64,000 nt of DNA from Boseongicola sp. H5 (GTDB taxonomy: Bacteria > Pseudomonadota > Alphaproteobacteria > Rhodobacterales > Rhodobacteraceae): contig JACNMN010000006.1 of the NCBI GenBank assembly GCA_020622165.1, forward strand, positions 217,407 to 281,406, in the 5' to 3' direction. A program made the position numbers and the translations under genes. Each line of letters opens with the position of its first letter. The stretch's first letter is position 1. The notes beneath the pieces are model-generated. The model searched no databases. It was not told the origin of the DNA and saw only the letters and a program-made list of their open reading frames with translations. Of this stretch, positions 9,067 to 64,000 are shown one piece after another.

Positions 9067-9193
9067 GCGATATGCACCGGCCGGCACCGATCCCGCATTG
9101 GCCCTTGGCCCCCGCGTGGAGCGTTCCTGACAATGATGATGGGATGAGGGAACGGGCCGGGCCGCTGCGGCCCTTGCCCGGCGTGGCGGACGC

Positions 9194-9970: not shown

Positions 9971-10043
9971 GGAGGTCTCCGCTGTCCCTGTTCCGGGGCG
10001 GACCATATCAAACCGATCAGTTCAGGAAAGCGGAAACGCCGCG

Positions 10044-47700: not shown

Positions 47701-47736
47701 GCAGCGCCACAACAGCAGAAAAACCGGAGACATCTC

Positions 47737-47943: not shown

Positions 47944-47987
47944 ACCGACTGCGCCATCACCGGGTGTCATTAGATGCCTGGGCAAGA

Positions 47988-48021
47988 AAAACGCCGCCCG
48001 GTGAGACCAGGGCGGCGTTTT
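47988..48021. terminator. Bidirectional rho-independent terminator
   Basis: A perfect 12-bp stem AAAACGCCGCCC/GGGCGGCGTTTT (47988-47999, 48010-48021) with a 10-base loop stands between the DUF6494 gene and the converging tupA gene. A-rich sequence on the left and T-rich on the right allow termination in both directions. Confidence 0.88.
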
Positions 48022-48052
48022 ACGTTCGGCTCGGATATTCGGCGCTTCGTCC

Positions 48053-48859
48053 CTATTGCGGGACGGCGCTGTGCACAAAGAGGGTCTGACCCTCCACGGT
48101 ATACGCATTGATCAGCTCTTCGCCACGGGGGCCCACAAGCCAGTCTTCAAGCTGCATGACAGCGGCGTTGTTGACATGCGGGTGACGATCCGGGTTCACC
48201 GGCAGCAGCGAATAAGGGTTGAACATTTCCGGATCGCCGGAAAACAGCAGCGCCAGGTCGGCCTGGTTTCCGAAGGTCAGCCATGTCGCGCGATCCGACA
48301 GAATATAGGCGTTCAGCCCCGACGCCGTGTTCAACGCCGCCCCCATGCCCGCGCCAACGGCATTATAGGCGCGGCCAAGGTCTTCCGGGTCGACACCGGC
48401 GCTGGTCCAGAGCGCCAGTTCTTTCTGATGCGTGCCGCTGTTGTCCCCGCGTGACACGAACAGCGCCTCGGCCTCGGCGATCCGCGCCAGAGCGTCGGCG
48501 GCGGTTTGGGCAGAGGCAATGCGTGCCGGGTCATCAGATGGGCCGATCAGCACGAAGTCGTTATACATGATTTCCCGCCAATGCGTCGCGTGACCGGCCT
48601 CCACGAAAGCGATCTCTGCGGGTCGCGAATGCACCAGCACCGCATCGACATCGCCCGCTTCCCCCAATCGGAGCGCCTGGCCCGTTCCGACCACCAGAAG
48701 CTCCACCTCGATCCCAAGTTCGGCCTGGATTTCCGGCAGAAGCACATCGGCAAGGCCGGAGTTTTCAAAGGATGTGGTGACGGCCATGCGCACCGTTTCC
48801 GCCATGGCAGGCAAGGTGGAAAGGGCGAAGGCGCAGGCAAGCAGGGCTCGGGTTATCAT
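48053..48859 (-). CDS. tupA: Tungstate ABC transporter substrate-binding protein TupA
   Basis: TupA binds tungstate in the periplasm with very high selectivity. The 268-residue protein has a signal peptide (ITRALLACAFALSTLPAMA), and the TupA signature segments VRMAVTTSFENSGLADVLLPE, VVGTGQALRLGEAGDVDAVLVHSR (in part) and SRGDNSGTHQKELALW. These separate it from molybdate-binding ModA. It is the last gene of a tupB-tupC-tupA unit, unlike the more common tupA-first order. It sits convergent with the formate dehydrogenase genes. Confidence 0.93.
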   Translation of the reverse strand: MITRALLACAFALSTLPAMAETVRMAVTTSFENSGLADVLLPEIQAELGIEVELLVVGTGQALRLGEAGDVDAVLVHSRPAEIAFVEAGHATHWREIMYNDFVLIGPSDDPARIASAQTAADALARIAEAEALFVSRGDNSGTHQKELALWTSAGVDPEDLGRAYNAVGAGMGAALNTASGLNAYILSDRATWLTFGNQADLALLFSGDPEMFNPYSLLPVNPDRHPHVNNAAVMQLEDWLVGPRGEELINAYTVEGQTLFVHSAVPQ

Positions 48860-48863
48860 TGGG

Positions 48864-49580
48864 TTACTCCACGATCTGACCGTTCAGGAAGGCGTGCGCT
48901 TCGGGCGTTGCAGGTTTTTCAAAGAACGTCTCCGCCCCATTTAATTCTCGCACGCAACCATTGAGCATGAAGACTATCTCGTCTGCAAGCCTTGCCGCCT
49001 GTCCAAGATCATGGGTCGACATGACAATGCGGGTGCCGCGGGATCTTGCGTCGGTCAGGATGGTTTCGATCTCGCGCGTGGCCCGCCCGTCAAGATTGGC
49101 GCAAGGCTCGTCGAGAAACAGCACTTCGGGGTCGCGGATCAGGGCGCGGGCAAGCGCAAGTTTCTGTTTTTCGCCACCGGAGAGCACCTGCGCAGAGCGG
49201 TCGAGAGCGTGCCTCAGCCCGACATGGGTGGCCACCTCCCGCGCCCGGGCCCGCGCCTCGGCACGTTTTGTCCCGGCCACGCGCAGGGCGTAGGCAATGC
49301 AATCGGTCACGCTGCGGCGCATCATCGTCGGCGTCTGAAACACGAACGAGCGGCTGCCTCGGGCCTCCTCTTCCGGGATCGACCAGTCGAGGCCACCATG
49401 GGCCGGACGTTCAAGCCCATGCATCAGCCGCAAGAGGGTTGTCTTGCCGGACCCGTTGGGGCCCAGAACGATGGTGATCCCGGTGCCGCCCAGGGTCAGG
49501 TCGATCGGCCCGATGAGACGGGTCCCACGCCGTTTCACCTCGGCGGCATGGATGCGCAGCGGCAGGATTGAGCTCACCAT
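48864..49580 (-). CDS. tupC: Tungstate ABC transporter ATP-binding protein TupC
   Basis: This 238-residue ATPase drives tungstate import. Walker A is LGPNGSGKTTLLRLMHGLE, the Q-loop region is FVFQTPTMMRRSVTDC, the signature is LSGGEKQKLALARAL, Walker B is VLFLDEPCANLD, and the H-loop is STHDLGQAARL. The start overlaps the tupB stop by seven bases, and tupA begins four bases after its stop, so all three are co-translated. Confidence 0.92.
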   Translation of the reverse strand: MVSSILPLRIHAAEVKRRGTRLIGPIDLTLGGTGITIVLGPNGSGKTTLLRLMHGLERPAHGGLDWSIPEEEARGSRSFVFQTPTMMRRSVTDCIAYALRVAGTKRAEARARAREVATHVGLRHALDRSAQVLSGGEKQKLALARALIRDPEVLFLDEPCANLDGRATREIETILTDARSRGTRIVMSTHDLGQAARLADEIVFMLNGCVRELNGAETFFEKPATPEAHAFLNGQIVE

Positions 49581-50278
49581 GTCCCCGACCTTTCGGTGCG
49601 CGACAACGAATGCATCAGCAGATTGACCGCGATGGCGAGCGCGATCAGCACGAAGCCAAGCCCGAGCGCCAGCGCGAAATTGCCTTTGCCGGTCTCCAGC
49701 GCGATGGCCGTGGTCAGCACGCGTGTGGCGTTATCGATGTTCCCGCCGACAATCATGATCGCCCCGACCTCGCCGATGCCGCGGCCAAAACCCGCAAGAC
49801 AGGCGGTCAGAAGCGCGCGCCGTGCATCCCAGAGCAGTGTCGCCACGCGTTGGCGCTTGGTCGTGTTCAGCGAAATCAGCAGATCATGGTATTCCGACCA
49901 CAGGTCACGGATGGCCTGATGCGCGATCGACGCAATGAGCGGGGTGACGATAATCACCTGCGCGATGATCATCGCCGTCGGGGTGAACAGCAGCCCGAGT
50001 ACGCCGAACGGCCCGGACCGGCTCAGCAGCACATAGACGATCAGACCGACGACCACCGGCGGCAACCCCATCAAGGCGTTCAGGAGGGCAATCACCAGGC
50101 GCCGCGAGCGGAAGCGCATCACCGCCAGCCACGCGCCAAGCGGCAGGCCAATCGCCGCCGCAATGACGACCGCCGTGATGGTGACCTGCAACGAGCGCAG
50201 CGTGATTTCGACGAGTTCCGGGTCGAACGCCGCGATCAGTTTTGCGGCCTCGACCAGCCCTTCCAGAATCTCGTTCAT
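49574..50278 (-). CDS. tupB: Tungstate ABC transporter permease TupB
   Basis: This 234-residue permease starts at 50278 (MNEILEGLVEAAKLI); the longer open frame upstream is not supported. Five to six hydrophobic segments are present, with the TupB features GLPPVVVGLIVYVLLSRSGP and the coupling region RALLTACLAGFGRGIGEVGAIMIVGGN, which closely follows the known TupB/YebM pattern. It is the first gene of the tup unit, so its promoter should lie in 50279-50500. Confidence 0.92.
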   Translation of the reverse strand: MNEILEGLVEAAKLIAAFDPELVEITLRSLQVTITAVVIAAAIGLPLGAWLAVMRFRSRRLVIALLNALMGLPPVVVGLIVYVLLSRSGPFGVLGLLFTPTAMIIAQVIIVTPLIASIAHQAIRDLWSEYHDLLISLNTTKRQRVATLLWDARRALLTACLAGFGRGIGEVGAIMIVGGNIDNATRVLTTAIALETGKGNFALALGLGFVLIALAIAVNLLMHSLSRTERSGTW

Positions 50279-50671
50279 CGGCAGCGGCGTTTCTTTGTGC
50301 TTGGCGTCGAAAACATTGGCACGTGATACCATTCTGGCCGATGGGCGAAAGGGCATTCTGACGCTGGTCCTCCCCCGCCGGACGGCATGCGCCCCGGCGC
50401 CAACCCGAGCCGCAGAGCCGTCGAAGCATGGGATATCATGGCGCCCAAGTTGAACGGCTACGTTCTGAACTCCCAAAAGTCGCCGAGCGCGCACCATCCG
50501 ACGCCCGTCACATTCCATGCGCATTCAATCGGAATGTGACGTAAAAGGTTTGCTAGGCTGGCGATACATTTTGAGCACAGTGCAATGACCCGGTCGCTGA
50601 CGCGATTTCCCCGCGCAGGCAACAGTTTCTTAAATAGGTGCAAGCTTAAGTGTTTGATACACAGATATAAT
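50279..50671. other. 393-base gap upstream of tupB up to the island edge
   Basis: No convincing gene is present. A 50-codon frame from about 50388 has no recognisable similarity or ribosome site. The gap should hold the tup promoter on the minus strand and contains an 11-bp perfect inverted repeat (50506-50516 with 50531-50541). From about 50540 to 50670 the sequence becomes A/T-richer as the island edge approaches. Confidence 0.5.
50506..50541. repeat. 11-bp perfect inverted repeat upstream of tupB
   Basis: CGTCACATTCC (50506-50516) pairs with GGAATGTGACG (50531-50541) across a 14-base spacer. The length and spacing suit a dimeric or tetrameric repressor operator, or a hairpin in a transcript. 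It lies about 230 bases from the tupB start on the promoter side. No known metal-regulator box was recognised. Confidence 0.5.
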
Positions 50672-50717
50672 TGGCGCACCCGAGAGGATTCGAACCTCTG
50701 ACCTCCGCCTTCGGAGC
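50672..50717 (-). tRNA. 3' fragment of tRNA-Arg(CCG): attachment site at the left end of the island
   Basis: Read on the minus strand this is CTCCGAA-GGCGG-AGGTC-AGAGG-TTCGAAT-CCTCT-CGGGTGC-G-CCA: anticodon loop with CCG, 3' half of the anticodon stem, variable loop, a full T arm, the 3' acceptor strand and CCA. The sequence before it (CCAG) cannot pair with GGCGG, and no D arm or 5' acceptor strand follows, so the gene is cut at the anticodon loop, a usual crossover place for tyrosine integrases. The intact tRNA gene with a restored 3' end is expected at the other end of the island, beyond the window. Confidence 0.85.
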
Positions 50718-50894
50718 TGGTTAAAGGACCCATCCGAATTGCACGATAGGGTACGCTAGAGCACACTAACAGCCTGAAATATATTGCTTTTCAGAAGCGA
50801 AGCTCCGAAGTCTCTATCCGAGAATACGCCTTGATTTCCTTCCGCGTGCTTGCGTGGTGCTTACTCGAAATCGGGGCTTCCGAGGGACGGGAGC

Positions 50895-52262
50895 ATGACC
50901 AAACTGACCAAACGGTTTGTAGAGGCAGTCGAGCCGAAGAGCAAAGGCCACGTTGTATGGGATGATGAACTGCCGGGCTTTGGTCTGCGCGTCTACCCCT
51001 CGGGGAAGCGTAGCTACCTCATCCAGTACAGAGCGAAAGGTCGCTCGCGGCGCTACACGATTGGAATCCATGGTGTGTGGACACCTGAAACTGCTCGTCG
51101 TGAAGCGAAGGCATTGCTTGGCCAGATCGCTCAGGGAGAAGACCCCGCTGCCGAAAGAGAAGAGGAACGCCGTGCGGTGACCGTGCGGGAGCTCTGCGAA
51201 CAGTACATCGCCGACATGGAAGCGGGCCTTGTTCTCGGAAAAGGAGGCCGCCCAAAGAAGGCGACCACCGTCGCGACAGACGTCGGTCGCATCCGCCGGC
51301 ACATCATCCCCTTGCTCGGCACGCGGAGGATCAAGGACATCACCAAACCAGACATGAACAATCTGATGAAGGATATTATCGCCGGCAAAACGCGCGTTGT
51401 GATGAAAACGGAGAAGTTACGCGGCAAAGCAATCGTCACGGGCGGTCCAGGCACTGCCATCCGTACCATGGGTCTTCTCGGCGGTATCTTCACTTATGCG
51501 ATTGAGGTGGGGATCATTGATCAGAACCCAACCCACGGTCTCAAGAAGCCGAGATACAAGGTGCGAGACCGGCGGCTGAGCGAGGCGGAATATCGGACGC
51601 TGGGTCGCCTTCTCAAAGACGTACAGCATGACAACCATTATGGCATCCACGCTGAAATCCTCCGACTCATCGCCCTGACCGGCTGCAGGCGTGGCGAAAT
51701 TATTGGTCTACGCTGGAGCGAAGTCGACATCGAGGGTAGCTGCCTGCGGTTGAAAGACAGCAAGGAAGGTGCATCAGTGCGACCCGTCGGCCTTCCGGTC
51801 ATCGACTATCTTGAAGCCGCGCGCCTTAAGCGGAACGGTACATTTGTCTTCCCCGGTCAAGGCGAGGACAACGCCGTCGGAAATTTCCCTCAGAGTTGGA
51901 AGAAGCTCTTCGCTGACACACCGCTCTGGGATGTGACCCCGCATGTCCTGCGGCACAGCTTCGCCAGCATCGCCAATGACCTTGGCTTCACGGAGATCAC
52001 CATCGCAGCACTCATCGGGCACGCCAAAGGATCGGTCACAAGCAAATACGTGCACACGCTTGACTCGACCTTGATAATGGCTGCGGACACCGTGTCGGGC
52101 TACATCAAAGCGCTTCTGGAAGGGGTTGAGTTCAGACGGAACACCTACACGTTGGATCATCAGACAAGGCGAAACACGATCAACGACATGTTGATAGATG
52201 CAAGGCCTAGCCATGAAGACACTTCATTTCCGCATGTCGAACACTCTAACCGTCAGATATGA
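50895..52262 (+). CDS. Tyrosine-type site-specific integrase with DUF4102 arm-binding domain
   Basis: This 455-residue recombinase integrates and excises the island. The start at 50895 follows GGGACGGGAG; an upstream extension was not used. The N-terminal arm domain (residues 1-90) includes DDELPGFGLRVYPSGKRSYL, the core-binding domain follows, and the catalytic domain carries the first Arg in LTGCRRGEIIGLRW, HVLRHSFAS with His and Arg, the second His in IAALIGHAKGS, and the nucleophile Tyr in SKYVHT. All catalytic residues are present, so it should be active. It points into the island, next to the tRNA fragment. Confidence 0.95.
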   Translation: MTKLTKRFVEAVEPKSKGHVVWDDELPGFGLRVYPSGKRSYLIQYRAKGRSRRYTIGIHGVWTPETARREAKALLGQIAQGEDPAAEREEERRAVTVRELCEQYIADMEAGLVLGKGGRPKKATTVATDVGRIRRHIIPLLGTRRIKDITKPDMNNLMKDIIAGKTRVVMKTEKLRGKAIVTGGPGTAIRTMGLLGGIFTYAIEVGIIDQNPTHGLKKPRYKVRDRRLSEAEYRTLGRLLKDVQHDNHYGIHAEILRLIALTGCRRGEIIGLRWSEVDIEGSCLRLKDSKEGASVRPVGLPVIDYLEAARLKRNGTFVFPGQGEDNAVGNFPQSWKKLFADTPLWDVTPHVLRHSFASIANDLGFTEITIAALIGHAKGSVTSKYVHTLDSTLIMAADTVSGYIKALLEGVEFRRNTYTLDHQTRRNTINDMLIDARPSHEDTSFPHVEHSNRQI

Positions 52263-52299
52263 CGTCTATATCGGCATTAGCAGTCAGATATGACGGTTA
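52247..52299. repeat. Operator-like repeats at the integrase end / hipBA upstream region
   Basis: A 13-bp direct repeat GTCAGATATGACG occurs at 52252-52264 and 52283-52295, 31 bases apart (three helix turns). Each copy is itself an imperfect palindrome, and the pair is framed by the 9-bp inverted repeat TAACCGTCA/TGACGGTTA (52247-52255, 52291-52299). It overlaps the last codons of the integrase and lies 230 bases before hipB. It looks like a cooperative protein-binding site, for example for an excisionase-like factor or HipB. Confidence 0.6.
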
Positions 52300-52529
52300 A
52301 AGGCAATTTGATTGATCGGGTTCTATGTCCGAAATCTGCTACCTTTTTCGGACATGGGTGCGATTTTTGATCCTGTGTCGTGGCCGTTTTGAAGCAGTTT
52401 TCCATTCGAGCGTTGTTACTCACAGCGCAGGCATAGCCTGTCGAGACGCTCAGGGGGCTCAGGTCGCTAGACAAAATGTAATCTTCCTGCTACATAAAGA
52501 CCTATTTTGTAGCGCGAAGAGCCCAAATT
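52300..52529 (+). promoter_or_regulatory. hipBA promoter region
   Basis: This A/T-richer stretch before hipB includes ACAAAAT and ATTTTGT (7-bp arms about 26 bases apart, near 52472 and 52504) close to the hipB start, which could be an antitoxin operator. No protein is convincing on either strand. HipB proteins usually repress their own operon from such sites. Confidence 0.35.
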
Positions 52530-52865
52530 ATGCCAACACCTCATCGCCCCCCTGTCGCTGTACGCCGCACGCTGCGTAAGCTGGGCTCCGACATACGCGA
52601 CGCGCGCAGGCGCCGCAAACTGCCCATGGCGGTCGTAGCCGAGCGCGCTTTCACATCACGTTCGACACTTCAAAAAATCGAAGCAGGCGATGCGAATGTC
52701 GGCATCGGTATCTATGCATCAGTGCTTCAAGCGCTTGGTCTGCTCGATGGCCTCGGGAACATTGCCGACATCGGAAACGATGAAGTAGGCCAGTCTCTAG
52801 CGAGCGCCAACCTGCCCAAACGTGTCCGCCTCAAGAGCAAGGCGGGGTCGCCGTCTCGTGAGTGA
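52530..52865 (+). CDS. hipB: HipB-type antitoxin, helix-turn-helix (XRE) regulator
   Basis: This 111-residue protein has a helix-turn-helix domain (LGSDIRDARRRRKLPMAVVAERAF-type region followed by TSRSTLQKIEAGDANVGIGIYASVLQALG, given here in pieces). This is the arrangement of HipB antitoxins, which neutralise HipA and repress the operon. The C-terminal tail is basic (LPKRVRLKSKAGSPSRE). Its end overlaps the hipA start by eight bases. Confidence 0.87.
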   Translation: MPTPHRPPVAVRRTLRKLGSDIRDARRRRKLPMAVVAERAFTSRSTLQKIEAGDANVGIGIYASVLQALGLLDGLGNIADIGNDEVGQSLASANLPKRVRLKSKAGSPSRE

Positions 52866-54105
52866 CATCGAAGTACACATCGATCTCAATGGGCAGTGTC
52901 GGCAGATCGGGATCGCCCGCGCAAATCAGGTGCGCGGCAACGAGACGGTCTTGTTCGAGTATGTTGATGATTGGCTCGATGATCCCGAGCGTTTTTCCAT
53001 CGAGCCTGCCCTCGCGCTTACGCGCGGCGGCTTTGCACCGCCACAAGGCCAAGCCATGTTTGGATCTCTAGGAGATTCAGCACCAGACACCTGGGGGCGG
53101 CGCCTGATGCAGCGTGCCGAGCGCCGTCTTGCAGACCAAGAAGAACGACGAGTTCGGACACTGACGGAAACCGACTATCTTCTCGGTGTAGCCGACGAGA
53201 CCCGTCTTGGCGCACTCCGCTTTCGAAGAGTCGGTGAAGAGATCTTCCAAGCGCCGGTTCGTGCCGGTATCCCGGCACTCATAGAACTCGGCCGATTGCT
53301 GCAAGTCTCGGAGCGCATCCTGCGGGATGAAGAGACGGACGAGGACCTCCAGCTAATCTTCGCCCCGGGATCATCGCTCGGTGGTGCACGCCCGAAAGCA
53401 TCGATCATTGATCAGCACGGTCACCTTTCGATCGCAAAGTTTCCAAAGGAAACCGATGAATACAGCATGGAAACCTGGGAAGAGATAGCGCTTCGTTTAG
53501 CCGCGCGGGCCGGAATAACAACGCCACATCACGAGTTGGTGGAGGTCGCAGGCAAAGCTGTCTTGCTCTCGCGCCGCTTTGACCGTGATGGTCAGGTACG
53601 AACCCCATTTCTCTCCGCCATGGCGATGACCGGCTCCAAGGACGGCGAACGCGGAAGTTACCCAGAGATTGTCGACGCCCTCTCTCAACATGGCGCACGC
53701 GCAAAAACGGATGCAATCGAACTCTATCGCCGGGTAGCTTTCAGCGTGCTAATTTCCAACGTGGATGATCATCTGCGTAACCATGGTTTCTTGTGGACGG
53801 GTAAGGATGGTTGGACCTTGTCTCCGGCCTACGACCTCAACCCAGTTCCAGTCGATCTGAAAGCCCGCGTTCTCACCACCAACATCGATCTTGACGAAGG
53901 GACCTGTTCGCTCGACCTACTGCAGGCATCCGCAGAATATTTTGGCTTGGGGATCGATGATGCTCAGTCCGTCATCAAAGACGTTGCCGCAGCCACGTCC
54001 ACTTGGCGCGAAACGGCCCGAGAGGTTGGCGCGCGTACTGGCGAAATCAATCGCATGGCCAGCGCGTTCGAACACGATGATCTGACACGGGCGTTGGCTC
54101 TATGA
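52858..54105 (+). CDS. hipA: HipA-type serine/threonine kinase toxin
   Basis: HipA kinases phosphorylate aminoacyl-tRNA synthetases and cause growth arrest. The 415-residue protein (GTG start at 52858, inside hipB) has the HipA N-subdomain, the glycine-rich ATP loop LGGARPKASI, and the catalytic segment ISNVDDHLRNHGFL with the active-site Asp, then SPAYDLNPVP with the metal-binding Asp. SRRFDRDG is the usual activation-site neighbourhood. All key residues are present, so it should be an active toxin. It stabilises the island or contributes to phage defence by dormancy. Confidence 0.92.
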   Translation: MSDIEVHIDLNGQCRQIGIARANQVRGNETVLFEYVDDWLDDPERFSIEPALALTRGGFAPPQGQAMFGSLGDSAPDTWGRRLMQRAERRLADQEERRVRTLTETDYLLGVADETRLGALRFRRVGEEIFQAPVRAGIPALIELGRLLQVSERILRDEETDEDLQLIFAPGSSLGGARPKASIIDQHGHLSIAKFPKETDEYSMETWEEIALRLAARAGITTPHHELVEVAGKAVLLSRRFDRDGQVRTPFLSAMAMTGSKDGERGSYPEIVDALSQHGARAKTDAIELYRRVAFSVLISNVDDHLRNHGFLWTGKDGWTLSPAYDLNPVPVDLKARVLTTNIDLDEGTCSLDLLQASAEYFGLGIDDAQSVIKDVAAATSTWRETAREVGARTGEINRMASAFEHDDLTRALAL

Positions 54106-54232
54106 GATACACTGTAATTCATCTTGTTGCACCGGCTGGACACTGTCAGCCCAGCCATACCGGCACCAGCATATCCACTGATTCACCTAAGACAAAAAAG
54201 TCGCCAAGATTCACTAATTCACGAGGCGTGCA

Positions 54233-56506
54233 TTGAGACTTGAATTCATCGAATTGCGGAACTACCGCAAGCTCAAATCAACTCGCATCGATTTCGATGA
54301 AAAACGTACGCTTTTCGTTGGCGCGAACAATAGCGGCAAGACGTCTGCTATGCTGGCTCTTCGCACCTTTCTGGGAGATACGAAAAAGCTGACGCTACGC
54401 GACGTTTCCATCGCGAACTGGGCGGCTTTGGACCTGATCGGTGAAGCATGGGAGGCGGACGGTGAACCCGCCAATACGTTTGCCGAACTTCTTCCCTCGC
54501 TCGATCTCTGGCTTGATGTCCCCGCGAGTGAGATTCACCACGTCGTTCACATCATTCCGACGATAGATTGGGCCAGTGGATTGCTCGGCGTGCGCCTGCA
54601 ATATGACATCGACAATGAAGATCAGCTCAAAGAGCACTATCTGGAGGCCCGAAACAAAGCCCAAATAAGGAACAAAAAAGCGGAAGATGGCCGACCCAAG
54701 CCGCAGATTAGGCCGGAAAGCCTAACTGACTTCCTAGACGGGGCATTCAGAAAGTATCTGACCGTTAACTGCTTCCCGCTAGACCCCGTGAAGAACAAGA
54801 CGCCTAAGCCAACCGGCGCCGCCCGGCCTCAACTGCTTCCCGAAGATACTCTTCCCCTGGACGACCGTCCATTCGCGAATCTTATCAAAGTCGACGAAAT
54901 TCCCGCTAGCCCACTTGAGCAAAGCGATTCGTCGGGAGATACGTCAGATGGCTCGGCAGGCCCTAGATTGAGGCGGCGTCTCTCAGATCAAGTTCGCAGC
55001 TATTATGACCGCCATCTCGACAATGCTGATGACCTATCGCCCGACGATATTGCGGCGCTCGGTTCGATTTATGACGCCGAACAAGCGTTCGACGGTCGCC
55101 TTAAATCTGGTTTTGAAGGAGCGCTTGATGAGCTGGCTGAGTTGAACGTACCAGGCGTTCACAATCCGTCGATTGCTTTCAACACGCAGCTGCGGGGCGA
55201 AGAAGGTCTGAAGCACGGAACCGCGATCCAATATCAAGTTTCAAATCCGGCCAGCTCTGGCGATCCAGTCCGCCACCTTCCCGAGTCCTATGCGGGTCTT
55301 GGCTATCAGCGTCTGATTTCGATGATCTTCTTGCTGATGCAGTTTCGCCAAGACTGGACCTCGCCGCCAGCGACTATTTCCATCAATGCCGCGCCTACGC
55401 CCCTAATTCATCTCGTGCTGATTGAGGAGCCGGAGGCACACCTGCATGCTCAAGTCCAACAAGTCTTTATCAACAAGGCCTATGACGTTCTTAGGAACCA
55501 CCCGCGTCTAGGCAATAAGACAGACCTGACGACACAGATGATCGTGAGCACGCATTCTAGTCATGTGGCTCACGAAGTAGATTTTGCTAATTTGCGTTAC
55601 TTCCGGCGACATCCATCGGACACCCCTGGAAGTGCTCCAACGACAACCGTTGCCAATCTCTCAAATGTATTTGGTGAGGACGAAGAGACCGAGCGTTTCG
55701 TCAAACGGTACCTCAAGTCTACCGACTGTGATCTCTTCTTCGCAGACGGCGCGATTTTTGTGGAGGGCCAAGCCGAGCGCATTTTGGTACCGCACTTTAT
55801 CCGGCATCATTTTCCATCTCTCTGGCGTCGCTACACCAGTCTGATTGACCTTGGTGGTGCCCATGCACATAGGCTCGAACCTCTGGTTAGAACCCTTGGA
55901 CTGACAGTTCTAGTAATTAGCGACCTCGACGCCGCCCAACCAACGCAGATTACAAAAAGTGATGGGGTCAAAACCAAAGTGAATCGCGCCGCCAAGCCAT
56001 CCGTTGGCAACGGACAAGTCACCAGCAATGCAGTCCTCAAAAAATGGCACCCCAAGAAAACCAAAATCGACGAACTCGTTTCACTGCCGGCAGATGGACA
56101 TGAGGTGCGCGTTGAAGAAGCGTATGATCTCTTTGTGGCCTTTCAAAAGGCAGTGCCCGACCCGACCGGTGCGAATAATGCGTCCTTGATACCGCGCACA
56201 TTCGAGGACGCGATTGTCTATGCCAACTTTGAGAACATCACTTGCGTCACTGGTGGTTCAACAACGACGAAGATCGCCAAACTTGTAGAGACCGGATTGA
56301 CTGGAGAGGGTCTTGAAGCTGAACTGTTCGAGCTACTCAGGAGCGCTGAAAAGGCAAGCTTTGCGCTTGATTGCCTTCTCGCCTTTGACAACCCCGAAAC
56401 ACTTCAACCGCCACCCTATATCAGTTCCGGCCTGGCGTGGCTCGACGCCAAACTTGCCTCCGAAACAAACACGGTCCTTAAAAAGAACGAGGTTCAGGGT
56501 GGCTAA
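54233..56506 (+). CDS. OLD-family ATP-dependent nuclease, GajA-like (Gabija-like / class 2 OLD)
   Basis: This 757-residue protein has an SMC-like ABC ATPase with Walker A GANNSGKTS (residues 30-38), a signature-like ESYAGLGYQRLISMIF segment, Walker B LVLIEEPEAHLHAQ and the H-loop STHSSHVAHEV. A C-terminal TOPRIM nuclease domain follows, with its glutamate in FVEGQAERILVP and the Asp pair in LVISDLDAAQ. It starts with TTG at 54233 and overlaps a UvrD-like helicase by eight bases. This pairing is the definition of class 2 OLD and of Gabija defence; the protein is about 180 residues longer than typical GajA, with insertions between the ATPase halves and after TOPRIM. Confidence 0.87.
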   Translation: MRLEFIELRNYRKLKSTRIDFDEKRTLFVGANNSGKTSAMLALRTFLGDTKKLTLRDVSIANWAALDLIGEAWEADGEPANTFAELLPSLDLWLDVPASEIHHVVHIIPTIDWASGLLGVRLQYDIDNEDQLKEHYLEARNKAQIRNKKAEDGRPKPQIRPESLTDFLDGAFRKYLTVNCFPLDPVKNKTPKPTGAARPQLLPEDTLPLDDRPFANLIKVDEIPASPLEQSDSSGDTSDGSAGPRLRRRLSDQVRSYYDRHLDNADDLSPDDIAALGSIYDAEQAFDGRLKSGFEGALDELAELNVPGVHNPSIAFNTQLRGEEGLKHGTAIQYQVSNPASSGDPVRHLPESYAGLGYQRLISMIFLLMQFRQDWTSPPATISINAAPTPLIHLVLIEEPEAHLHAQVQQVFINKAYDVLRNHPRLGNKTDLTTQMIVSTHSSHVAHEVDFANLRYFRRHPSDTPGSAPTTTVANLSNVFGEDEETERFVKRYLKSTDCDLFFADGAIFVEGQAERILVPHFIRHHFPSLWRRYTSLIDLGGAHAHRLEPLVRTLGLTVLVISDLDAAQPTQITKSDGVKTKVNRAAKPSVGNGQVTSNAVLKKWHPKKTKIDELVSLPADGHEVRVEEAYDLFVAFQKAVPDPTGANNASLIPRTFEDAIVYANFENITCVTGGSTTTKIAKLVETGLTGEGLEAELFELLRSAEKASFALDCLLAFDNPETLQPPPYISSGLAWLDAKLASETNTVLKKNEVQGG

Positions 56507-58409
56507 TCTCGCTGAAACCGCCGAACCGGATGCCGATTCTGATGTCGACATGATCATTGCCGAGTGTCTCACGCCGACAGCCCCAAAGAGTTTCTTTCTC
56601 TATGCCGGCGCGGGATCGGGTAAGACCTATTCGCTTGTTAAAGGTTTGAAGCACATTGCCCAAGAACATGATGAACATCTGCGTGCCTCCCAGCAGCGCA
56701 TCGCCGTGATCACCTACACGAATGCCGCCAGCGACGAGATAGTCGATCGTGTCGAGGAAAACCCACTGTTCGACATCCGGACCATCCATAGCTTTTGCTG
56801 GTCGCAAATATCAATGCTGCACTCAGACATTCGCAAATGGTTACTCGCGACGCTGCCCGCTGACATTGCCGAGCTCGAAGAAGCAGAGGCAAAAGGTCGT
56901 CAAGGAACCAAGACCTCGATCGCGCGCCAGCGTAGTATCGCGGATAAAAACAAACGTCTGGAATGGCTGCAGAAGCCCCGTCACTTCACCTATGATCCCA
57001 ATGGCGACAATATCGGACGCGCGTCTTTATCCCATAGCGAGGTATTAAAGATCACGGCCGATTTCCTTCGGAACAGCCCGTCCTTTCAGGCCATTCTAGT
57101 TAACCGTTATCCGTTTCTTCTGATAGATGAGAGCCAAGACACCAATGCGAATTTACTCGACGCATTCTTTGATCTGGAAGAAGCAATGCAGGGGCACTTT
57201 GGCCTCGGGCTGATTGGTGACATGATGCAGCGTATATATGCCGATGGGAAAGCTGATCTCGACGCAGCACTCCCTGACCGTTGGGTCAAACCGGTGAAGA
57301 AACTCAATCGTCGCTGTCCAAAGCGTATCGTGGGATTGGCCAACACGATCAGAAACACGACGGATCAACAGGTCCAACACGCCTTGAACAACAGCCCAAA
57401 CGGCGAGCTCCGACTGTTCGTCGTAAACAGCGGACGGGACGATAAAGCCGACATAGAGAATGACGTAAGACACCGCATGGCTGAACTTACAGGAGACACG
57501 GCATGGCAAAAGCAGACCGATGTGAAGTCCCTGACGCTAGAACACCGAATGTCGGCCCGGCGCATGGGCTTCGACGAGATGTTTGCGCCCCTGTACGGTA
57601 GCTCAAGGCTATCGACGGGCGCGATGGACGGAACGTTGTCCGCCATCCGCCTTTTCACGGAGAATGTCCGACCCGTCCTCGAGGCCTACAACGCCGACGA
57701 CAAATATCGCGTCATGGCTCTCTTGCGATCGCTTAAGTCTCCCTTGCTTGAGCGGGACGCTCTCCTGAATACGCCGTCCCCGACCGACCCTCTCACACCG
57801 GTCCGCAACGCGCTGGAACAGCTTCAGGCCCTTTGTACAGGCAACCGGGCTCCGAGCTTCCTGAATGTGTTGCAGCTAGTCGCAACCACGCGCGTCTTTC
57901 GCATTCCCAAACCGCTGCTGTCGTTCGCCGAGACAATGGACGTCACCGAAACGGAAGAAGAGCCCGAAACACCGGAAGATACGTCGGCCCATCCAGAGAG
58001 CGAATCAGCGACGCTCAGAGCCCTCGGCGACTTCCTTGAGGCGCCTTACGATCAAATCCACGCCTACCGGGAATATATCGACGATGCCGGCCCTTTCGAC
58101 ACGCATCAGGGCGTGAAAGGGCGTGAGTTCGAGAGAGTGATGGTTATCATGGATGACGAAGAAGCTCGCGGATTCATGTTTTCCTACGATAAACTATTTT
58201 CGGTGAAACCACCAACACCGGGGGATCTTAAAAAGATGGCCGAGGGCGAGGAAACCGGAATTGATCGCACTAAGCGGCTCTTTTATGTCACCTGTACCAG
58301 AGCTGAGAAAAGCCTGTGCTTCCTCGCTTACACCGACGATCCCATGGCTTTGCAGGCGAACGTCACAAAAAATGGATGGTTTTCCGAAGAAGAAGTCGTC
58401 CTGCTTTGA
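56499..58409 (+). CDS. UvrD/PcrA-like superfamily 1 helicase, GajB-like
   Basis: This 636-residue helicase starts with GTG at 56499 within the nuclease gene. Motif I is AGAGSGKTYS (36-45), Ia TYTNAASDEI, II LLIDESQDTNA, III GLIGDMMQRIY, IV RRCPKRIVGLAN, V HQGVKGREFERVMVIMDDEE and VI KRLFYVTCTRAEKS. All SF1A motifs are there, so it should be active. GajB is usually about 500 residues; this one has an extra insertion between motifs IV and V. It is the partner of the OLD nuclease and together they are predicted to sense and cut phage DNA. Confidence 0.87.
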   Translation: MANLAETAEPDADSDVDMIIAECLTPTAPKSFFLYAGAGSGKTYSLVKGLKHIAQEHDEHLRASQQRIAVITYTNAASDEIVDRVEENPLFDIRTIHSFCWSQISMLHSDIRKWLLATLPADIAELEEAEAKGRQGTKTSIARQRSIADKNKRLEWLQKPRHFTYDPNGDNIGRASLSHSEVLKITADFLRNSPSFQAILVNRYPFLLIDESQDTNANLLDAFFDLEEAMQGHFGLGLIGDMMQRIYADGKADLDAALPDRWVKPVKKLNRRCPKRIVGLANTIRNTTDQQVQHALNNSPNGELRLFVVNSGRDDKADIENDVRHRMAELTGDTAWQKQTDVKSLTLEHRMSARRMGFDEMFAPLYGSSRLSTGAMDGTLSAIRLFTENVRPVLEAYNADDKYRVMALLRSLKSPLLERDALLNTPSPTDPLTPVRNALEQLQALCTGNRAPSFLNVLQLVATTRVFRIPKPLLSFAETMDVTETEEEPETPEDTSAHPESESATLRALGDFLEAPYDQIHAYREYIDDAGPFDTHQGVKGREFERVMVIMDDEEARGFMFSYDKLFSVKPPTPGDLKKMAEGEETGIDRTKRLFYVTCTRAEKSLCFLAYTDDPMALQANVTKNGWFSEEEVVLL

Positions 58410-58546
58410 GGATCTTCATTCCACCCCATACGATCACCTGGAAATACATCCACTCGCTCGATAGCCTGCTTGTCCTGGCGGTGGACACGGTGCCGGGCTG
58501 TGCTCAGGGCTTGCTGGACGGCACTACGTTCGAGCATTTACAGAGT

Positions 58547-59302
58547 TCAACCAAGGAGTTCACGCAGGTTATCTGAGATCAGAGCGTCGATCTCTTCTGC
58601 ACCCATCTGGAAAAGCTTAGCCAACCCATCCCGCGCGGGTCTCACATCTGCGGGACCATCATGACCCACAGCGTTATCTGTGAAGGGGCCGTCCGTCTCG
58701 GTCAGGATGCGCTCTTTTGGGAGCGATCGTACCAGCGCCACTGAGCGCTCATTGCGGATCATCGCGGCATTGATCGAAAAATAGCACCCCATCTCAGCAG
58801 CGCGCCGTGCCTCGGGTAATGACCCTGTAAACCAATGCAATACCACGCGCCCTCTGCCGACCGGCATTCTTGCGTCAATCGTATCGAGTACGACCTTCGC
58901 GCAGCGCACGCTGTGGACCGAGAGAATCTTACCGCGTGCCTCAGCACAGGCGCTGAGTATCTCCGCGAAAACAACTTTCTGTTCGTCGAATGAAGAATAG
59001 AAACGTCGTCCGGCATCGAGGCCAACTTCGCCGACATATCGGGTCGATGGGAGATAGTCCTTCCAGATCGACAGCTCCTTCGCACGGTCGGCCACGAGCT
59101 GCGGATGCAGGCCAAGTGCTGCCCTTACGTACTTTGTGCGATCCGCGAGTTCCTTGTTCCGCGGAAAGGCTCTCGGCGTCGTAGTCACCGTCAGCGTGAA
59201 CACACGCTCGCGCTCTCGTTGTTGAATGGCGGCGGCATGGTCCGGATAGAGATCGAGATGGCAATGGAAGTCGACGAGCCGTGCAGTCTGACGAATGGTC
59301 AT
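58547..59302 (-). CDS. qatD: QatD: TatD-family metal-dependent nuclease of the Qat system
   Basis: This 251-residue TIM-barrel hydrolase has the TatD metal motifs: FHCHLD (residues 12-17), VGEVGLD with the Glu ligand, VHSVRC, VLHWFTG and TETDGPF. Its ATG overlaps the qatC stop by four bases. It is the last gene of the QatABCD operon, a known anti-phage system (Gao et al., Science 2020), in which QatD may cut DNA. It converges on the helicase gene across 137 bases that hold no gene. Confidence 0.9.
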   Translation of the reverse strand: MTIRQTARLVDFHCHLDLYPDHAAAIQQRERERVFTLTVTTTPRAFPRNKELADRTKYVRAALGLHPQLVADRAKELSIWKDYLPSTRYVGEVGLDAGRRFYSSFDEQKVVFAEILSACAEARGKILSVHSVRCAKVVLDTIDARMPVGRGRVVLHWFTGSLPEARRAAEMGCYFSINAAMIRNERSVALVRSLPKERILTETDGPFTDNAVGHDGPADVRPARDGLAKLFQMGAEEIDALISDNLRELLG

Positions 59303-60648
59303 GACGGCCCCGTCTTCACGCCCTTCAATACTTCCCCGACCTCTTCTAGGCCCCGGCGATAGACATTTGCATAGGCATCGACCCTGTCAGGGTAGTCAGT
59401 TAATGGGCCGGGCTTATGGATGAGCAGCTTCGCGAGTTCGGGACGCCGTGCCAGTCGGTGTATGGCCAATTGAAATGACCGGACCTGCTGTCCCTCAGCT
59501 TGACGTGTATCCAATGAATAGGCCGTTAGATCGGGAACGCCGTAAACCGTCGGATCGTTATCGGCCAATGATGCCCTCCGGATCAGACATGGGAGACAGT
59601 ATCCACAATGCCCTTGCGGTTCACCCTTCCAACGCGCCTTCGCGGGAGAGGAGCATGACAAGGAGTGGATCGCTGCCTTGTCCAGCACATCGGTGTTGGC
59701 ACATTCGGCGGCCATCTCCCCCTTCGTCTTATCCCAATATGGATTTACGAGTTCGCCATCGATCCCCAATGCTTCCAATAGCTCGTTCCAACGCGCCATA
59801 TAAAATGGATGGGTAGTACGCGTGCTCAACGCACCTAGTCGGAGCGGATCCAATGGCACGTTCAAGGCGATGAGGCCGTTCTCCGGAACTCGTAGGAGGA
59901 ACTTGTTACCCAAACCCGCCCCCGCCGCTACGCCCAGCGAGAAGAACAGGAACGATCGCCCACGTGTCGTGCTCTCGGATTCGACGCCGTCGATCAGGCC
60001 ATCCCCGAACGCCATCCAGATTCGCAATCGGTCGAAGGATGAATCCGGATACGCGTCCTTCAAGACGTCGTAGCATCCCTCCTGAGATTTGCTGACAGCG
60101 CCTTCGCCAGCATGACTCACCAGGAGCGGTGACCCACCTTCTTGCAAGTTGTCGATCGCGCCAATCAGGCTGTCGAGCCCGCCCGAAAACAAATTCACCG
60201 CGTCGAAGGGGACGGGAAGCAGAGGCTTTGGACGTGGTTTTGAAAGGGTAGCGAACTTCTTCGGTCGAGACCGAAACCCAATCTGCCAACGATCCCCCGT
60301 CAAGAAATCGAGCGCCCGTTTCACGATGGCCGCCGCATCCGTCCATAATGCCGGATCGCTGACTGGCACGACCAGTCTGATCTCTCGCGACCAACCATCT
60401 TGCGATTCCGTCGAGCGCGAGAGGCGTGTGTCGGCCGCATGGATATGCGCGGCAAGCACCATAAGGTCTATCGCGACTTCGCCGGGCGCTAGGTTCAAAT
60501 CAGCCATGTCTGAGAGGGCGTAGCCAATGCCGTGCGCGAGACGGTCGCCGACTAACAAACCGAGTTCGGACACTTGTTCATCACTCGCCGCGGGGATCTC
60601 TATGGTGTCCTTCGGCCCAAATCTTCCCACCAGTAAATGTCGTCTCAT
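59299..60648 (-). CDS. qatC: QatC: QueC-like protein of the Qat system
   Basis: QatC is a QueC-related enzyme; QueC makes preQ0 in queuosine synthesis, but in Qat the substrate is unknown. The 449-residue protein has the ATP pyrophosphatase motif NLFSGGLDSLIG near residue 152, and a zinc-type cysteine cluster HSLSCSSPAK ... GHCGYCLPCLIRR as in QueC. It has an N-terminal extension of about 140 residues and a C-terminal tail, neither found in housekeeping QueC. It overlaps both neighbours by four bases. Confidence 0.9.
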   Translation of the reverse strand: MRRHLLVGRFGPKDTIEIPAASDEQVSELGLLVGDRLAHGIGYALSDMADLNLAPGEVAIDLMVLAAHIHAADTRLSRSTESQDGWSREIRLVVPVSDPALWTDAAAIVKRALDFLTGDRWQIGFRSRPKKFATLSKPRPKPLLPVPFDAVNLFSGGLDSLIGAIDNLQEGGSPLLVSHAGEGAVSKSQEGCYDVLKDAYPDSSFDRLRIWMAFGDGLIDGVESESTTRGRSFLFFSLGVAAGAGLGNKFLLRVPENGLIALNVPLDPLRLGALSTRTTHPFYMARWNELLEALGIDGELVNPYWDKTKGEMAAECANTDVLDKAAIHSLSCSSPAKARWKGEPQGHCGYCLPCLIRRASLADNDPTVYGVPDLTAYSLDTRQAEGQQVRSFQLAIHRLARRPELAKLLIHKPGPLTDYPDRVDAYANVYRRGLEEVGEVLKGVKTGPS

Positions 60649-61547
60649 GACTCCGCCTCACTCTCACCCAGCGCTTCGAGCATCTCAAAGGCCGCTTCAT
60701 ACACGCTATCTACGAAACCCGAGACCTGGTCCTGCGAGAGCGCACCGATGTCGACGCCCGATGCGTTCACCGCGTCGCTTACGCCGCGCTGGATGAATTC
60801 GGACAATTGAGCTTCGATCCGTTCGACCGTTCGAGTATCTGAAGGCATCGTCACGACCCTCGTACCGATATCGTTGCAGATCCGAGCCTCGATGGCGTGA
60901 GATGCATATAGCTCGAAGACGGTCTGGATCTGTTCCGAGGTCAGGCCGTCAATATCCGTTATTCCCGCATCCGCGAGATCGGCGATTGTCTCTATGAACG
61001 CGTCGCGTGCGATGCCCTCATCGACCGATCCCCCATCGGGGCAGATATAGTCCGCGAGGCCGGCGAAGACCTCTTCGACCGGACGGCCCGCGAGACTCTC
61101 CAAGTTGAGTGATCGGAGCGCCTCACGAACACCGTTAGCACTCGCATTCCCGAGGAAGCTGACCAGTCCCGACGCCGTGCCACGGGACGATCCCATCCGC
61201 CTCGCAGCGGAACCGGCTCCGCCAGACGATCGCGAGACGTATTGGGAAACCGCCCGCCCCAAACTTCGGCGATCACTCCCACCCGATCCCGCGAACCGTG
61301 TGAAGTTGCTGCGCGCCGAACGGAAACGATCACTCGTCGGAGGTTGCACCACGGGCGGTCGTTCTGCTGGAGCAGCGGGCGGTGTCTGTGGCGTATCATC
61401 GGAAGGTTTGCTATCGCCAGCATCATCCGGGCCTGCGCCATCGCCAGGCGGATTCCTATCGGCCGCATCACTGTCGCCCCCGTCAAGCCAAGTCGGGACC
61501 AGTGGCGTTCCCCCTGATGCCCCGCCGAATGCATTCGAAGTTCCCAT
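60645..61547 (-). CDS. qatB: QatB: uncharacterised protein of the Qat system
   Basis: This 300-residue protein starts MGTSNAFGGASGGTPLVPTW, a start typical of QatB, followed by a low-complexity Asp/Pro/Gly region (residues ~25-80), a Ser/Gly/Arg-rich patch, and a helical C-terminal half with a conserved-looking RICNDIGTRVVTMPSD stretch. No catalytic motif is visible. In other Qat operons QatB always lies between QatA and QatC, as here. Its short flexible N terminus could be a substrate for QatC; this idea rests on position and sequence character only. Confidence 0.85.
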   Translation of the reverse strand: MGTSNAFGGASGGTPLVPTWLDGGDSDAADRNPPGDGAGPDDAGDSKPSDDTPQTPPAAPAERPPVVQPPTSDRFRSARSNFTRFAGSGGSDRRSLGRAVSQYVSRSSGGAGSAARRMGSSRGTASGLVSFLGNASANGVREALRSLNLESLAGRPVEEVFAGLADYICPDGGSVDEGIARDAFIETIADLADAGITDIDGLTSEQIQTVFELYASHAIEARICNDIGTRVVTMPSDTRTVERIEAQLSEFIQRGVSDAVNASGVDIGALSQDQVSGFVDSVYEAAFEMLEALGESEAES

Positions 61548-63496
61548 CAGCGTCCCCCTTTACCCGTTCGCGTTGCCGCTCCAGCCGCCGCCTTGAGCGT
61601 CGACGATCCACTTTCTGACCAGCCAACCAAGAGCCCGTCGAGCCTAGCGACGAACTCACCGTCCCTGATGACTCCGGCCCAGCCTGACGCGACCCACGGG
61701 CCGCATCTATCGGCCGGCAGGCTTTCCAACATATCTAGAAGGTTGGACTGCAAGAAATCATGCGCGCGCACCAAGACCGTCATCCCAGCGACACCGGCAG
61801 GAGCTGTCTCGAAAGAGTCCCCACCCATGATCCGGCCCCGCAGTTCTTCGAAAACCTGACCGGCTTCGGCGGGTGCCAATTGTCGGAGTTCGCCGTCAAA
61901 GGTTTGAACAGCCAGCTTCGAGCCCATCAATTTCTCGACTACGGCACTCAATCGACCCAGCACGGACGCCGCCCCGAAGTAGTCCTTCCGATCCTTCGCC
62001 ACGAACAGATATGGGCGCAGATCTTCCTCGCCGATCTTTGGAGAAAGGTTCGCCCAGGACCTGATGGCATCGGAGCCCTTCCATTCGGACAGCATCGCAC
62101 TGTCCGGGTCCGGTTTCTCCCTCGGTCCGTCCAAGGTTGAGATTTTCGAACCCTTCTTACGAGATTTCTTCGGTGCCTCCGCAGGAATATCGCCCATTTC
62201 CAAGAGCGCGAGATCCTCGCAGCGCCCGTTGTCATTTTTTGCCGCAGCACTGGCGATCTGATCGAACAGGCGAGACATAAACCTCTCCGCCAACATGAGC
62301 TTCGCCAGCACGGGCAATCTTACATCACGACCGAAGCCACGCGCCTGCGCGGTCTGGTTGCGCAGCAATAAAGTGTTCAGGAAGCGCTTGATCTGTCTCG
62401 GATTACCCTGCGTACCGCTCGCGAGGATTGGGCCGATCTGGTCGCTCAGTGTCAGAGCGTTGGTAACTCCGTTCCCTAGATCTCCCAAGGTGTCCTTGAC
62501 CGTCGCCGCGTCGAGCCCGCCGGCTTGCCAGGGCCGTTCGAGCTGTTTGCGTGCGACCGCTATGAGCTTCGCATAGCCTTCGTCATTCTCTCCCAGCTCT
62601 GCGCCGATCAACAAGAGCGTTACATAAATGCGCGTCTCTGTCTCGCCCAAAGCCGGTATACGGAACGGGACCTGAATCAGCTTCTCGAGATAATTACGCG
62701 CATAGTCTCGGGGCCCCGTCGTATCAGGCAGCTCCGGGAAATGTTTGCGGACGGAATACTCGATCATCGCCTCATCGGCTGCGACGATAAAGGCCGTGCG
62801 ATCGGTGAAGACGAACAAACGGACAGCCTCCAATGTCTCGATGGCGATATCCGGCAAGCACCGATCGAGATCGTCGATCAGAACGACGAGTTGTTTGACA
62901 CCGGCCTTGTCAAGCAGCTCGTCGAAGGCTTTCCGGAACGCGCCGATCTCCTCCGGCAAGCGTTTCGACTCGTCCGGCTTCAACAAGTCCTGGACGCCGT
63001 CGAGCGCGGCGTCGTAGTTCTCCTTCGTGGCGAGTTCGCCGGGATCGTCGATCAACCCTTTCACGCCGCCAACAGCGGCGCGTATCTGGTCAGATGTCGG
63101 GATGCCCGTGAGGGCCGTGAATGCGAGGCCGCCACCATGCCGCGCGACCTTGAGCCAGTCGATCCGTTTGAAGATATTCTTGACCGCTTCACCGGCCTCG
63201 GTCGCCAATGAACGCTGCTCGATCAGCTCCGTGACGATGCCTTCGATGAGCGCGATTTTCGCGTCTTCGAAACCTTGAAAGCGCCATCCATTGAATTTGA
63301 TACACAAGACGTCGTCGTCGCCGTCGAGTGACGCATCGATCATCTCCAGCACGCTCGATTTACCCGCGCCCCAGTCACCGTGCACACCGATCGTAATAGC
63401 CTGATCGGGCCGCTTTGAAAGTAATTGGATAATTGTCGACGCGATCGCTTCGTTATTGAGCAGGTCCACTTTTGTTTCGTTATCTGGAAGTATCAA
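61547..63496 (-). CDS. qatA: QatA: KAP-family P-loop ATPase of the Qat system
   Basis: This 649-residue KAP NTPase starts the Qat operon. It begins with TTG at 63496 (ILPDNETKVDLLNNE); no ATG is close. Walker A is GDWGAGKSSVLEM (residues 40-52), the KAP-specific IKFNGWRFQGFEDAK follows, and Walker B is LVVLIDDLDRCLPD. Some KAP ATPases have inserted membrane helices; here the segment GGLAFTALTGIPT near residue 125 is only weakly hydrophobic. The stop shares a base with the qatB start (TGATG). A promoter-like TATAGAAT lies about 35 bases upstream. Confidence 0.9.
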   Translation of the reverse strand: MILPDNETKVDLLNNEAIASTIIQLLSKRPDQAITIGVHGDWGAGKSSVLEMIDASLDGDDDVLCIKFNGWRFQGFEDAKIALIEGIVTELIEQRSLATEAGEAVKNIFKRIDWLKVARHGGGLAFTALTGIPTSDQIRAAVGGVKGLIDDPGELATKENYDAALDGVQDLLKPDESKRLPEEIGAFRKAFDELLDKAGVKQLVVLIDDLDRCLPDIAIETLEAVRLFVFTDRTAFIVAADEAMIEYSVRKHFPELPDTTGPRDYARNYLEKLIQVPFRIPALGETETRIYVTLLLIGAELGENDEGYAKLIAVARKQLERPWQAGGLDAATVKDTLGDLGNGVTNALTLSDQIGPILASGTQGNPRQIKRFLNTLLLRNQTAQARGFGRDVRLPVLAKLMLAERFMSRLFDQIASAAAKNDNGRCEDLALLEMGDIPAEAPKKSRKKGSKISTLDGPREKPDPDSAMLSEWKGSDAIRSWANLSPKIGEEDLRPYLFVAKDRKDYFGAASVLGRLSAVVEKLMGSKLAVQTFDGELRQLAPAEAGQVFEELRGRIMGGDSFETAPAGVAGMTVLVRAHDFLQSNLLDMLESLPADRCGPWVASGWAGVIRDGEFVARLDGLLVGWSESGSSTLKAAAGAATRTGKGGR

Positions 63497-63815
63497 AAGT
63501 AAAAGTCCTGTGTTTATTCTATAACTATTATTCGTGCCCAGTCAGCACCTTAGCTAAGTCGAAGGTATCAATCCAGAGCGAACGGTGGGTGCAGATTCGT
63601 TGGCATCGGAATGGTCTATCGAGAGCATGGTTTTTCGTAACAAGAACGGTCTTTTAGGGGAAAGCCTTCCCCTGCGGTCGAGCCTGTAGTCTCGCCCTAC
63701 CCTTCTGCGGGGAGACCCCGCAACGCCCCCGAGAGTGAGAGACCTGCGGCTGTCGCCGTGACGGGTTTGGAGGTCGAGAGAGAGGCTCTCGGACCGCCCG
63801 TCATGGAGATCAGCC
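63497..63815. promoter_or_regulatory. 319-base gap: qatA promoter and structured leader of the next gene
   Basis: No gene is convincing. The left part is A/T-rich and should hold the qatA promoter (minus strand). The right part is GC-rich and carries three hairpins on the plus strand: AGGGGAA/TTCCCCT (63656-63673), TGCGGGG/CCCCGCA (63706-63722) and CGAGAG/CTCTCG (63775-63791), with GGAGATC just before the start codon at 63816. It resembles a conserved structured leader for the gene that follows. Confidence 0.5.
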
Positions 63816-63879
63816 ATGACAGCGATTGAGATCATGAACGGCCGCCCCGAGAGCGGCGGCTACAAGGTGGATGTGGACC
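63816..63879 (+). pseudogene. 5' fragment of an accessory-element gene interrupted by an insertion sequence
   Basis: ATG at 63816 (after TGGAGATC) begins a frame reading MTAIEIMNGRPESGGYKVDV, which then runs into insertion-sequence DNA. The segment GGYKVDV is reminiscent of the N terminus of DUF932-type proteins common in alphaproteobacterial plasmids and integrative elements; this match is from memory and weak. The rest of the gene should be found on the far side of the insertion. Confidence 0.5.
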
Positions 63880-64000
63880 TGTCACGGATTTGTGCCGCTC
63901 CTTTGACTACGTATCGTGTCGCAAAGGAGAACACAGATGGCATCACGACCAACCGAGGAATTTCGTTCAGAAGCAGTGCGGGTGGCTTTAACCAGCGGGT
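63880..64000 (+). mobile_element. Left end of an IS3-type insertion sequence
   Basis: From about 63880 the sequence TGTCACGGATTTGTGCCGCTC looks like an insertion-sequence end, followed about 35 bases later by AAGGAGAACACAG and a transposase start. The element breaks the gene that begins at 63816. Its exact end and target duplication cannot be set because the right end is outside the window. Confidence 0.65.
63937..64000 (+). CDS. IS3-family transposase OrfA (partial, start only)
   Basis: ATG at 63937 follows AAGGAGA and reads MASRPTEEFRSEAVRVALTSG before the window ends. This is the usual beginning of the small helix-turn-helix OrfA of IS3-family transposases (family pattern RR/EEFRxEAVRLAxxSG). 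Only 21 codons are visible. Confidence 0.75.
   Translation, partial: MASRPTEEFRSEAVRVALTSG

Follow-up and report, generated by a model that had tools for sequence, protein, structure and literature searches.

A long-form Gabija gene pair in a mobile defence island of Boseongicola sp. H5

Gabija systems, which over 15% of sequenced genomes are reported to carry (PMC10781630), pair the nuclease GajA with the helicase GajB and have been described as blocking phages (PMC10781630, PMC12407980, PMC11559045). In Bacillus cereus, GajA tetramers are reported to bind GajB (PMC10781630), and bound ATP is reported to stabilise an inserted region within the ATPase domain, which keeps the TOPRIM domain closed (PMC12796447, citing Li et al. 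2024). For the Pseudomonas aeruginosa PA14 system, a preprint reports that both genes and their active sites are required, and that Gabija acts before replication and targets DNA ends that RecBCD leaves unprocessed (PMC12407980). Gabija systems do not all behave in one way: a GajA from lactic acid bacteria is described as a non-specific nuclease (PMC13304284). Here, we describe a gajAB pair at positions 54233 to 58409 of a 64,000-nucleotide stretch of the Boseongicola sp. H5 genome (contig JACNMN010000006.1), hereafter the window. Judged by its sequence, the pair is Gabija by kind. Its GajA is of a long form that constitutes a lineage with insertions of its own, and it probably acts with GajB in cutting invading phage DNA.

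The first gene, gajA (54233..56506, plus strand, TTG start), encodes a class 2 OLD nuclease of 757 residues with an N-terminal ABC-type ATPase domain and a C-terminal TOPRIM domain. The second, gajB (56499..58409, plus strand, GTG start), encodes a UvrD-like SF1A helicase of 636 residues. Direct reading of the sequence confirms what the initial annotation had stated, namely both lengths and an overlap of eight bases between the gajA stop and the gajB start (56499..56506, plus strand). The catalytic motifs, all of which it had reported as present, are also in place. In the GajA ATPase domain, these are the Walker A motif GANNSGKT (residues 30-37, 54320..54343), the signature G357, the Walker B E399 and H441. 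The TOPRIM core (residues 502-566, 55736..55930, Pfam PF20469) holds E511, E515, D564 and D566, which together with T656xE658 and K707 form the complete E, E, DxD, TxE, K set of metal-binding and catalytic residues. G357, E399, H441, E511, E515, D564 and D566 are invariant in an alignment of 120 sequences, and K36, T656, E658 and K707 are kept in at least 90% of them. GajB motifs I, Ia, II, III, IV, V and VI start at residues 36, 72, 210, 240, 270, 535 and 597. The Q motif of such helicases has the consensus LNxxQ. Inspection by eye found no LNxxQ-like motif ahead of GajB motif I, which fits the reported absence of a Q motif from B. cereus GajB (PMC10822852).

The Gabija pair of B. cereus VD045 (GajA, 578 residues; GajB, 494 residues; PDB 8sm3, 8x5i, 8tjy and others) has the same gene order and domain order, the same ATPase and TOPRIM catalytic residues, the same SF1 helicase motifs and the same overall GajA fold. 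PADLOC profiles recognise both proteins. GajA matches PDLC00093 (736 positions) over residues 1-752 (E 9.4e-253, the best GajA model) and PDLC00095 (752 positions) over residues 1-751. GajB matches PDLC00111 (625 positions) over residues 8-635 (E 4.3e-234, the best GajB model) and PDLC00143 (632 positions) over residues 11-635 (E 6.7e-218). The matches to PDLC00093, PDLC00095 and PDLC00111 all have E 4e-218 or better. These profile clusters come under one Gabija label and cover nearly the full length of both proteins, so that proteins of this size already count as Gabija. Pfam matches above cut-off comprise AAA_15 (PF13175) at residues 1-446 and OLD-like_TOPRIM (PF20469) at residues 502-566 of GajA, and UvrD-helicase (PF00580) in GajB. 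In addition, the best Foldseek match of the predicted GajA structure is GajA itself (8x5i_D), and the GajA fold spans the whole chain.

The initial annotation had suggested that the pair may be a distinct subtype lying between class 2 OLD and Gabija. There is no such gap, because class 2 OLD and GajA are treated as synonyms in a review (PMC10568477) and near full-length Gabija models of this size exist in PADLOC. The class 2 OLD proteins of Xanthomonas and Burkholderia (TOPRIM structures 6njv and 6nk8) have the helicase partner and the E, E, DxD, TxE, K residues in common with the window pair (PMC6755086). Unlike gajAB, the class 1 OLD of Thermus scotoductus (6p74) is described as a single gene without a helicase partner (PMC10568477). 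The class 3 OLD effector of Retron-Eco8 (9lpa, 9lp9) is bound to a retron. The NCBIfam Eco8 model gives 57.6 bits on GajA, against a cut-off of 250, and no reverse transcriptase family was found among the nine window proteins scanned (50850-63496), so that we reject a class 3 OLD. Membership in PARIS was rejected as well. In that system the nuclease AriB is encoded by a separate gene, whereas the TOPRIM domain is fused in GajA, and the AriA model reaches 155.4 bits compared with 839.2 bits for GajA.

Insertions were located in an alignment of 63 GajA/OLD proteins, comprising the window protein, that of an uncultured Erythrobacter (locus L002), 38 from 38 other genomes, the second OLD of the Boseongicola genome itself, 10 from plasmids and 12 database homologues. 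The 40 genome stretches were picked from the profile matches listed and comprise the best-scoring hits, some lower-scoring ones as a sample, and the locus of that second Boseongicola OLD. Three genome loci are truncated: L042 ends directly after gajA, and L039 and L040 are without a gajA start. Long-form rows, 29 in number, were named beforehand by length and match score. T656 is present in 28 of them (Ser in one), and the remaining residues of the metal set in all 29.

GajA of the window is about 180 residues longer than that of B. cereus VD045, with conserved insertions. The initial annotation had placed insertions in the ATPase domain and after TOPRIM. The alignment spacings bear out extra sequence at both places, the second of them following the DxD residues. 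Between Walker A and the signature lie 321 residues, within the 301-328 of 24 of the 29 long-form rows and beyond the 200-291 of the 34 other rows. From DxD to TxE there are 92 residues, where 26 long-form rows have 83-133, three have 77 and the others 26-77; the corresponding distance in Burkholderia class 2 OLD is 49 (D457 to T506 in the numbering of PMC6755086). The three long-form rows with short spacings (L041, L042 and Phaeobacter; 274-275 residues from Walker A to signature, 77 from DxD to TxE) fall inside the range of other lineages, so that a subgroup of the long form overlaps them. Stretches of at least five GajA residues opposite which no fewer than 70% of the 34 rows of other lineages have gaps lie at residues 62-73, 82-88, 143-158, 170-192, 201-207 and 230-239, and further on at 301-312, 379-383, 423-431, 479-484, 581-590, 610-616, 627-650 and the C terminus, 751-757. 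Most of the ATPase-domain insertions are thus grouped in residues 143-239 (54659..54949, plus strand), and the DxD-TxE insertion, next to the TOPRIM metal site, occupies residues 581-650 (55973..56182, plus strand). Residues in these inserts or at their edges mark the lineage: P88 (28 of 29 long-form rows against 1 of 34 others), W605 (26 against 2), P607 (26 against 1) and Q638 (28 against 1). Length alone was rejected as a subtype marker, as 11 of the 34 GajA/OLD rows of other lineages also have at least 680 residues, some with doubtful start codons.

GajB behaves differently. Both proteins had been described as oversized, which holds against the solved B. cereus chains and fails for GajB against most other lineages. 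Its motif IV-V spacing of 265 residues lies within the 244-273 of the long form and the 233-269 of 21 of the 24 other-lineage helicases; it is 197-202 in two B. cereus-like helicases and 156 in one short row. The proposed insertion between motifs IV and V is therefore present only relative to the B. cereus type, and an enlarged GajB was rejected. The only spacing marker of GajB is the V-VI distance, which is 63-64 in 22 of 24 long-form rows and 34-60 in the others. Overall, GajB is of usual size, and it is the GajB of the solved B. cereus type that is unusually compact.

Phylogenetic trees were consistent with the insertion pattern. Alignment columns filled in fewer than 70% of rows were dropped beforehand, so the insert columns carry little weight in them. 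In a quick, unrooted GajA tree of all 63 rows, the 29 long-form rows form one side of a branch with SH-aLRT 99. A careful unrooted tree retained 24 long-form rows among 50 and placed them on one side of a branch supported at 100/99. This tree leaves out eight close relatives of kept rows and five solo OLDs (L064, L066, L067, L070 and L071), beside which no helicase frame was found by eye. The helicase partner is present in L052, L059, L060, L061 and L062, and L063 has by eye a partial P-loop frame at the contig end. A quick-search, unrooted GajB tree gave the same split with support 96 (24 of 48 rows long-form); L072, which lacks a GajA frame, was used in this tree only. As the long-form rows had been named beforehand, the trees test the cohesion of the set, not its completeness. 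The nearest outsider to it is L043. The two B. cereus-like rows, relatives with 66% and 48% identity over a 152-residue piece, sit on the longest stem of the careful GajA tree, at 2.88 changes per column. Other groups are equally deep, so that the long form appears as one lineage among several, with the solved type itself far out. Hence, the distinct subtype proposed initially stands for GajA, given its conserved insertions and well-supported branch, and falls for GajB. The refutation named in the initial annotation is borne out by half: phylogeny and structure prediction place the pair inside Gabija, yet GajA has insertions of its own.

The locus encodes a two-gene Gabija of the long-form lineage, which probably defends the cell through cleavage of invading phage DNA. 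On the model of the B. cereus and P. aeruginosa systems, GajA would assemble into a tetramer to which GajB binds, and nucleotide on the GajA ATPase domain would keep the TOPRIM domain shut. GajB, on meeting exposed DNA ends or single-stranded DNA, would consume NTP, and GajA, released, would cut DNA by two-metal catalysis. Judging from their place and conservation, the ATPase-domain inserts may alter this gate or the way the complex assembles, and the insert that carries W605-x-P607 may influence DNA choice. Several observations weigh against this reading. The TM-scores of the predicted GajA to solved GajA are moderate (0.41/0.54), and SMC heads almost equal GajA by Z on the ATPase domain. UvrD, PcrA and Rep outscore B. 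cereus GajB as fold matches to the GajB prediction. In sequence, no solved chain comes nearer than B. cereus GajA, whose match is weak (E 2.2e-6) and has its best stretch at residues 394-567; none of the solved chains found closely resembles the long-form lineage. Both trees put the B. cereus-like type at a great distance, so that to apply its mechanism here is to make an assumption.

A different, tentative view is one that we consider possible and distinctly less probable: the long-form Gabija may be a second structural type, in which the ATPase inserts and the W-x-P insert bring about an assembly and a trigger different from those of the B. cereus type. The inserts would then replace the nucleotide switch or the tetramer contacts, and what the system responds to would be DNA ends or some other signal, not a loss of NTP. 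Consistent with this, the 100/99 branch was obtained from mostly insert-free columns, and the insert residues P88, W605, P607 and Q638 are conserved within the lineage and rare outside. Moreover, it is an insertion region, stabilised by ATP, that is reported to close the TOPRIM domain of B. cereus GajA (PMC12796447), and the PA14 system, taken as an analogue, is reported to act on DNA ends and ahead of replication (PMC12407980). However, every catalytic residue tested is kept, and the spacings of L041, L042 and Phaeobacter lie within the range of other lineages. If this view were true, the B. cereus rules (nucleotide gating, site-specific nicking, sensitivity to the phage inhibitor Gad1) would not carry over.

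The gajAB pair lies in a mobile defence island. Directly upstream of gajA are a small HTH gene (hipB-like) and a hipA-like gene (PF07804, 152.8 bits) at 52530-54105 on the plus strand, and further upstream a tyrosine integrase identified by Pfam scan (50850-52262). Downstream, on the minus strand, a complete Qat system (58547-63496) consists of qatD (58547-59302), qatC (59299-60648), qatB (60645-61547) and qatA (61547-63496), all four above the NCBIfam equivalog cut-offs. Over 11.4 kb, positions 52470-63874 of the window and 6238-17628 of L002 share 92% identity and the gene order hipBA-gajAB-qatDCBA. The only other similarity in the 18.3 kb of L002 compared is at 50662-50868, the integrase start, and at 58428-58536. 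A module this similar with mostly different flanks suggests transfer as one unit. The 109 bases just after gajB (58428-58536, plus strand) share 77% identity with part of the integrase-like gene of L002, close to its end. They are probably the scar of an older integrase and would date from the arrival of gajAB next to qat. Before the integrase, three minus-strand frames (48053-50524) were read by eye as the substrate-binding protein, ABC ATPase and permease of an anion (perhaps tungstate) transporter. Rfam gave no match at gathering score in 47000-64000, and a tRNA search of the window found none.

The L002 pair has the same starts and lengths as that of the window (8001-10274 and 10267-12177) and its frames are open. 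This bears on whether gajAB is silent or decaying in Boseongicola sp. H5, which we regard as very improbable. Some relatives are broken (gajA is split in L076, L084 and L085, gajB in L092) and intact ones exist; in the window both frames are open with their catalytic motifs intact, as in L002 within the 92% identical DNA.

The long form is widely distributed. PDLC00093 matches of at least 640 bits occur in 11 of 299 Pseudomonadota genomes, own genome included. On plasmids, 342 records match, of which 70 cover at least 80% of the query and not all are long-form; a P. aeruginosa plasmid (L074) carries a long-form pair. Among 19 loci returned from IMG/VR, 13 have a near-complete long-form GajA with adjoining GajB (the split gajB of L092 among them), and L096 ends after gajA. 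In all 15 long-form tree loci with enough DNA, gajB adjoins gajA. Homologues number at least 4764 (GajA-like) and at least 5855 (GajB-like) among about 8000 scored candidates each, which are not family sizes. A pattern scan of genome contigs, with patterns from a single sequence, yielded one relative. L041, a long-form locus, has its best matches to PDLC00093 and PDLC00143. Among the papers listed by searches on Gabija and class 2 OLD, no title or abstract opening described a long-form lineage, and no long-form subtype is named in the available portion of the PADLOC paper (PMC8565338). An OLD tree with 11 uncharacterised clades has been reported (PMC12796447).

Other arrangements were seen around related pairs. 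The Boseongicola genome carries a second, ordinary-length Gabija (L052, 2333-9814, contig C18; 606 and 582 residues; PDLC00100 and PDLC00149). Ahead of this pair lie genes for a metallophosphatase and a Rad50/SMC-like ATPase, which resemble SbcD/SbcC. At L041 (11991-16579) and L080 (8000-10067), related long-form gajAB genes are followed by genes for a metallophosphatase and a large AAA_27 ATPase, again SbcCD-like. Such neighbours, found at 3 of the 73 loci searched and beside two unlike gajAB pairs, may be a recurrent partner for an end-sensing system. On a Priestia megaterium plasmid (L073, 3044-7841), a 708-residue GajA of another lineage and its helicase stand directly before a gene whose annotation names a Shedu SduA domain. 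That the main role of gajAB is the repair or recombination of DNA and not defence, to which these SbcD/SbcC-like flanks and the speculation of Schiltz et al. on repair or replication from the helicase association (PMC6755086) would point, is the least probable reading and very unlikely, given the Qat neighbour, the integrase, the shared mobile module, the patchy presence and the phage blocking by other Gabija systems.

For the window, the outcome is thus mostly ordinary. The pair is of an established defence kind, sits in a mobile defence island and belongs to a widespread long form that PADLOC already labels Gabija. The GajA-GajB structures that we met are of the B. cereus type, far from the long-form lineage in both trees, while many Pseudomonadota carry the long form, as do plasmids and viral contigs. 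It is therefore a clean and testable question whether rules learned from B. cereus apply to this form, and the conserved inserts point to residues worth testing.

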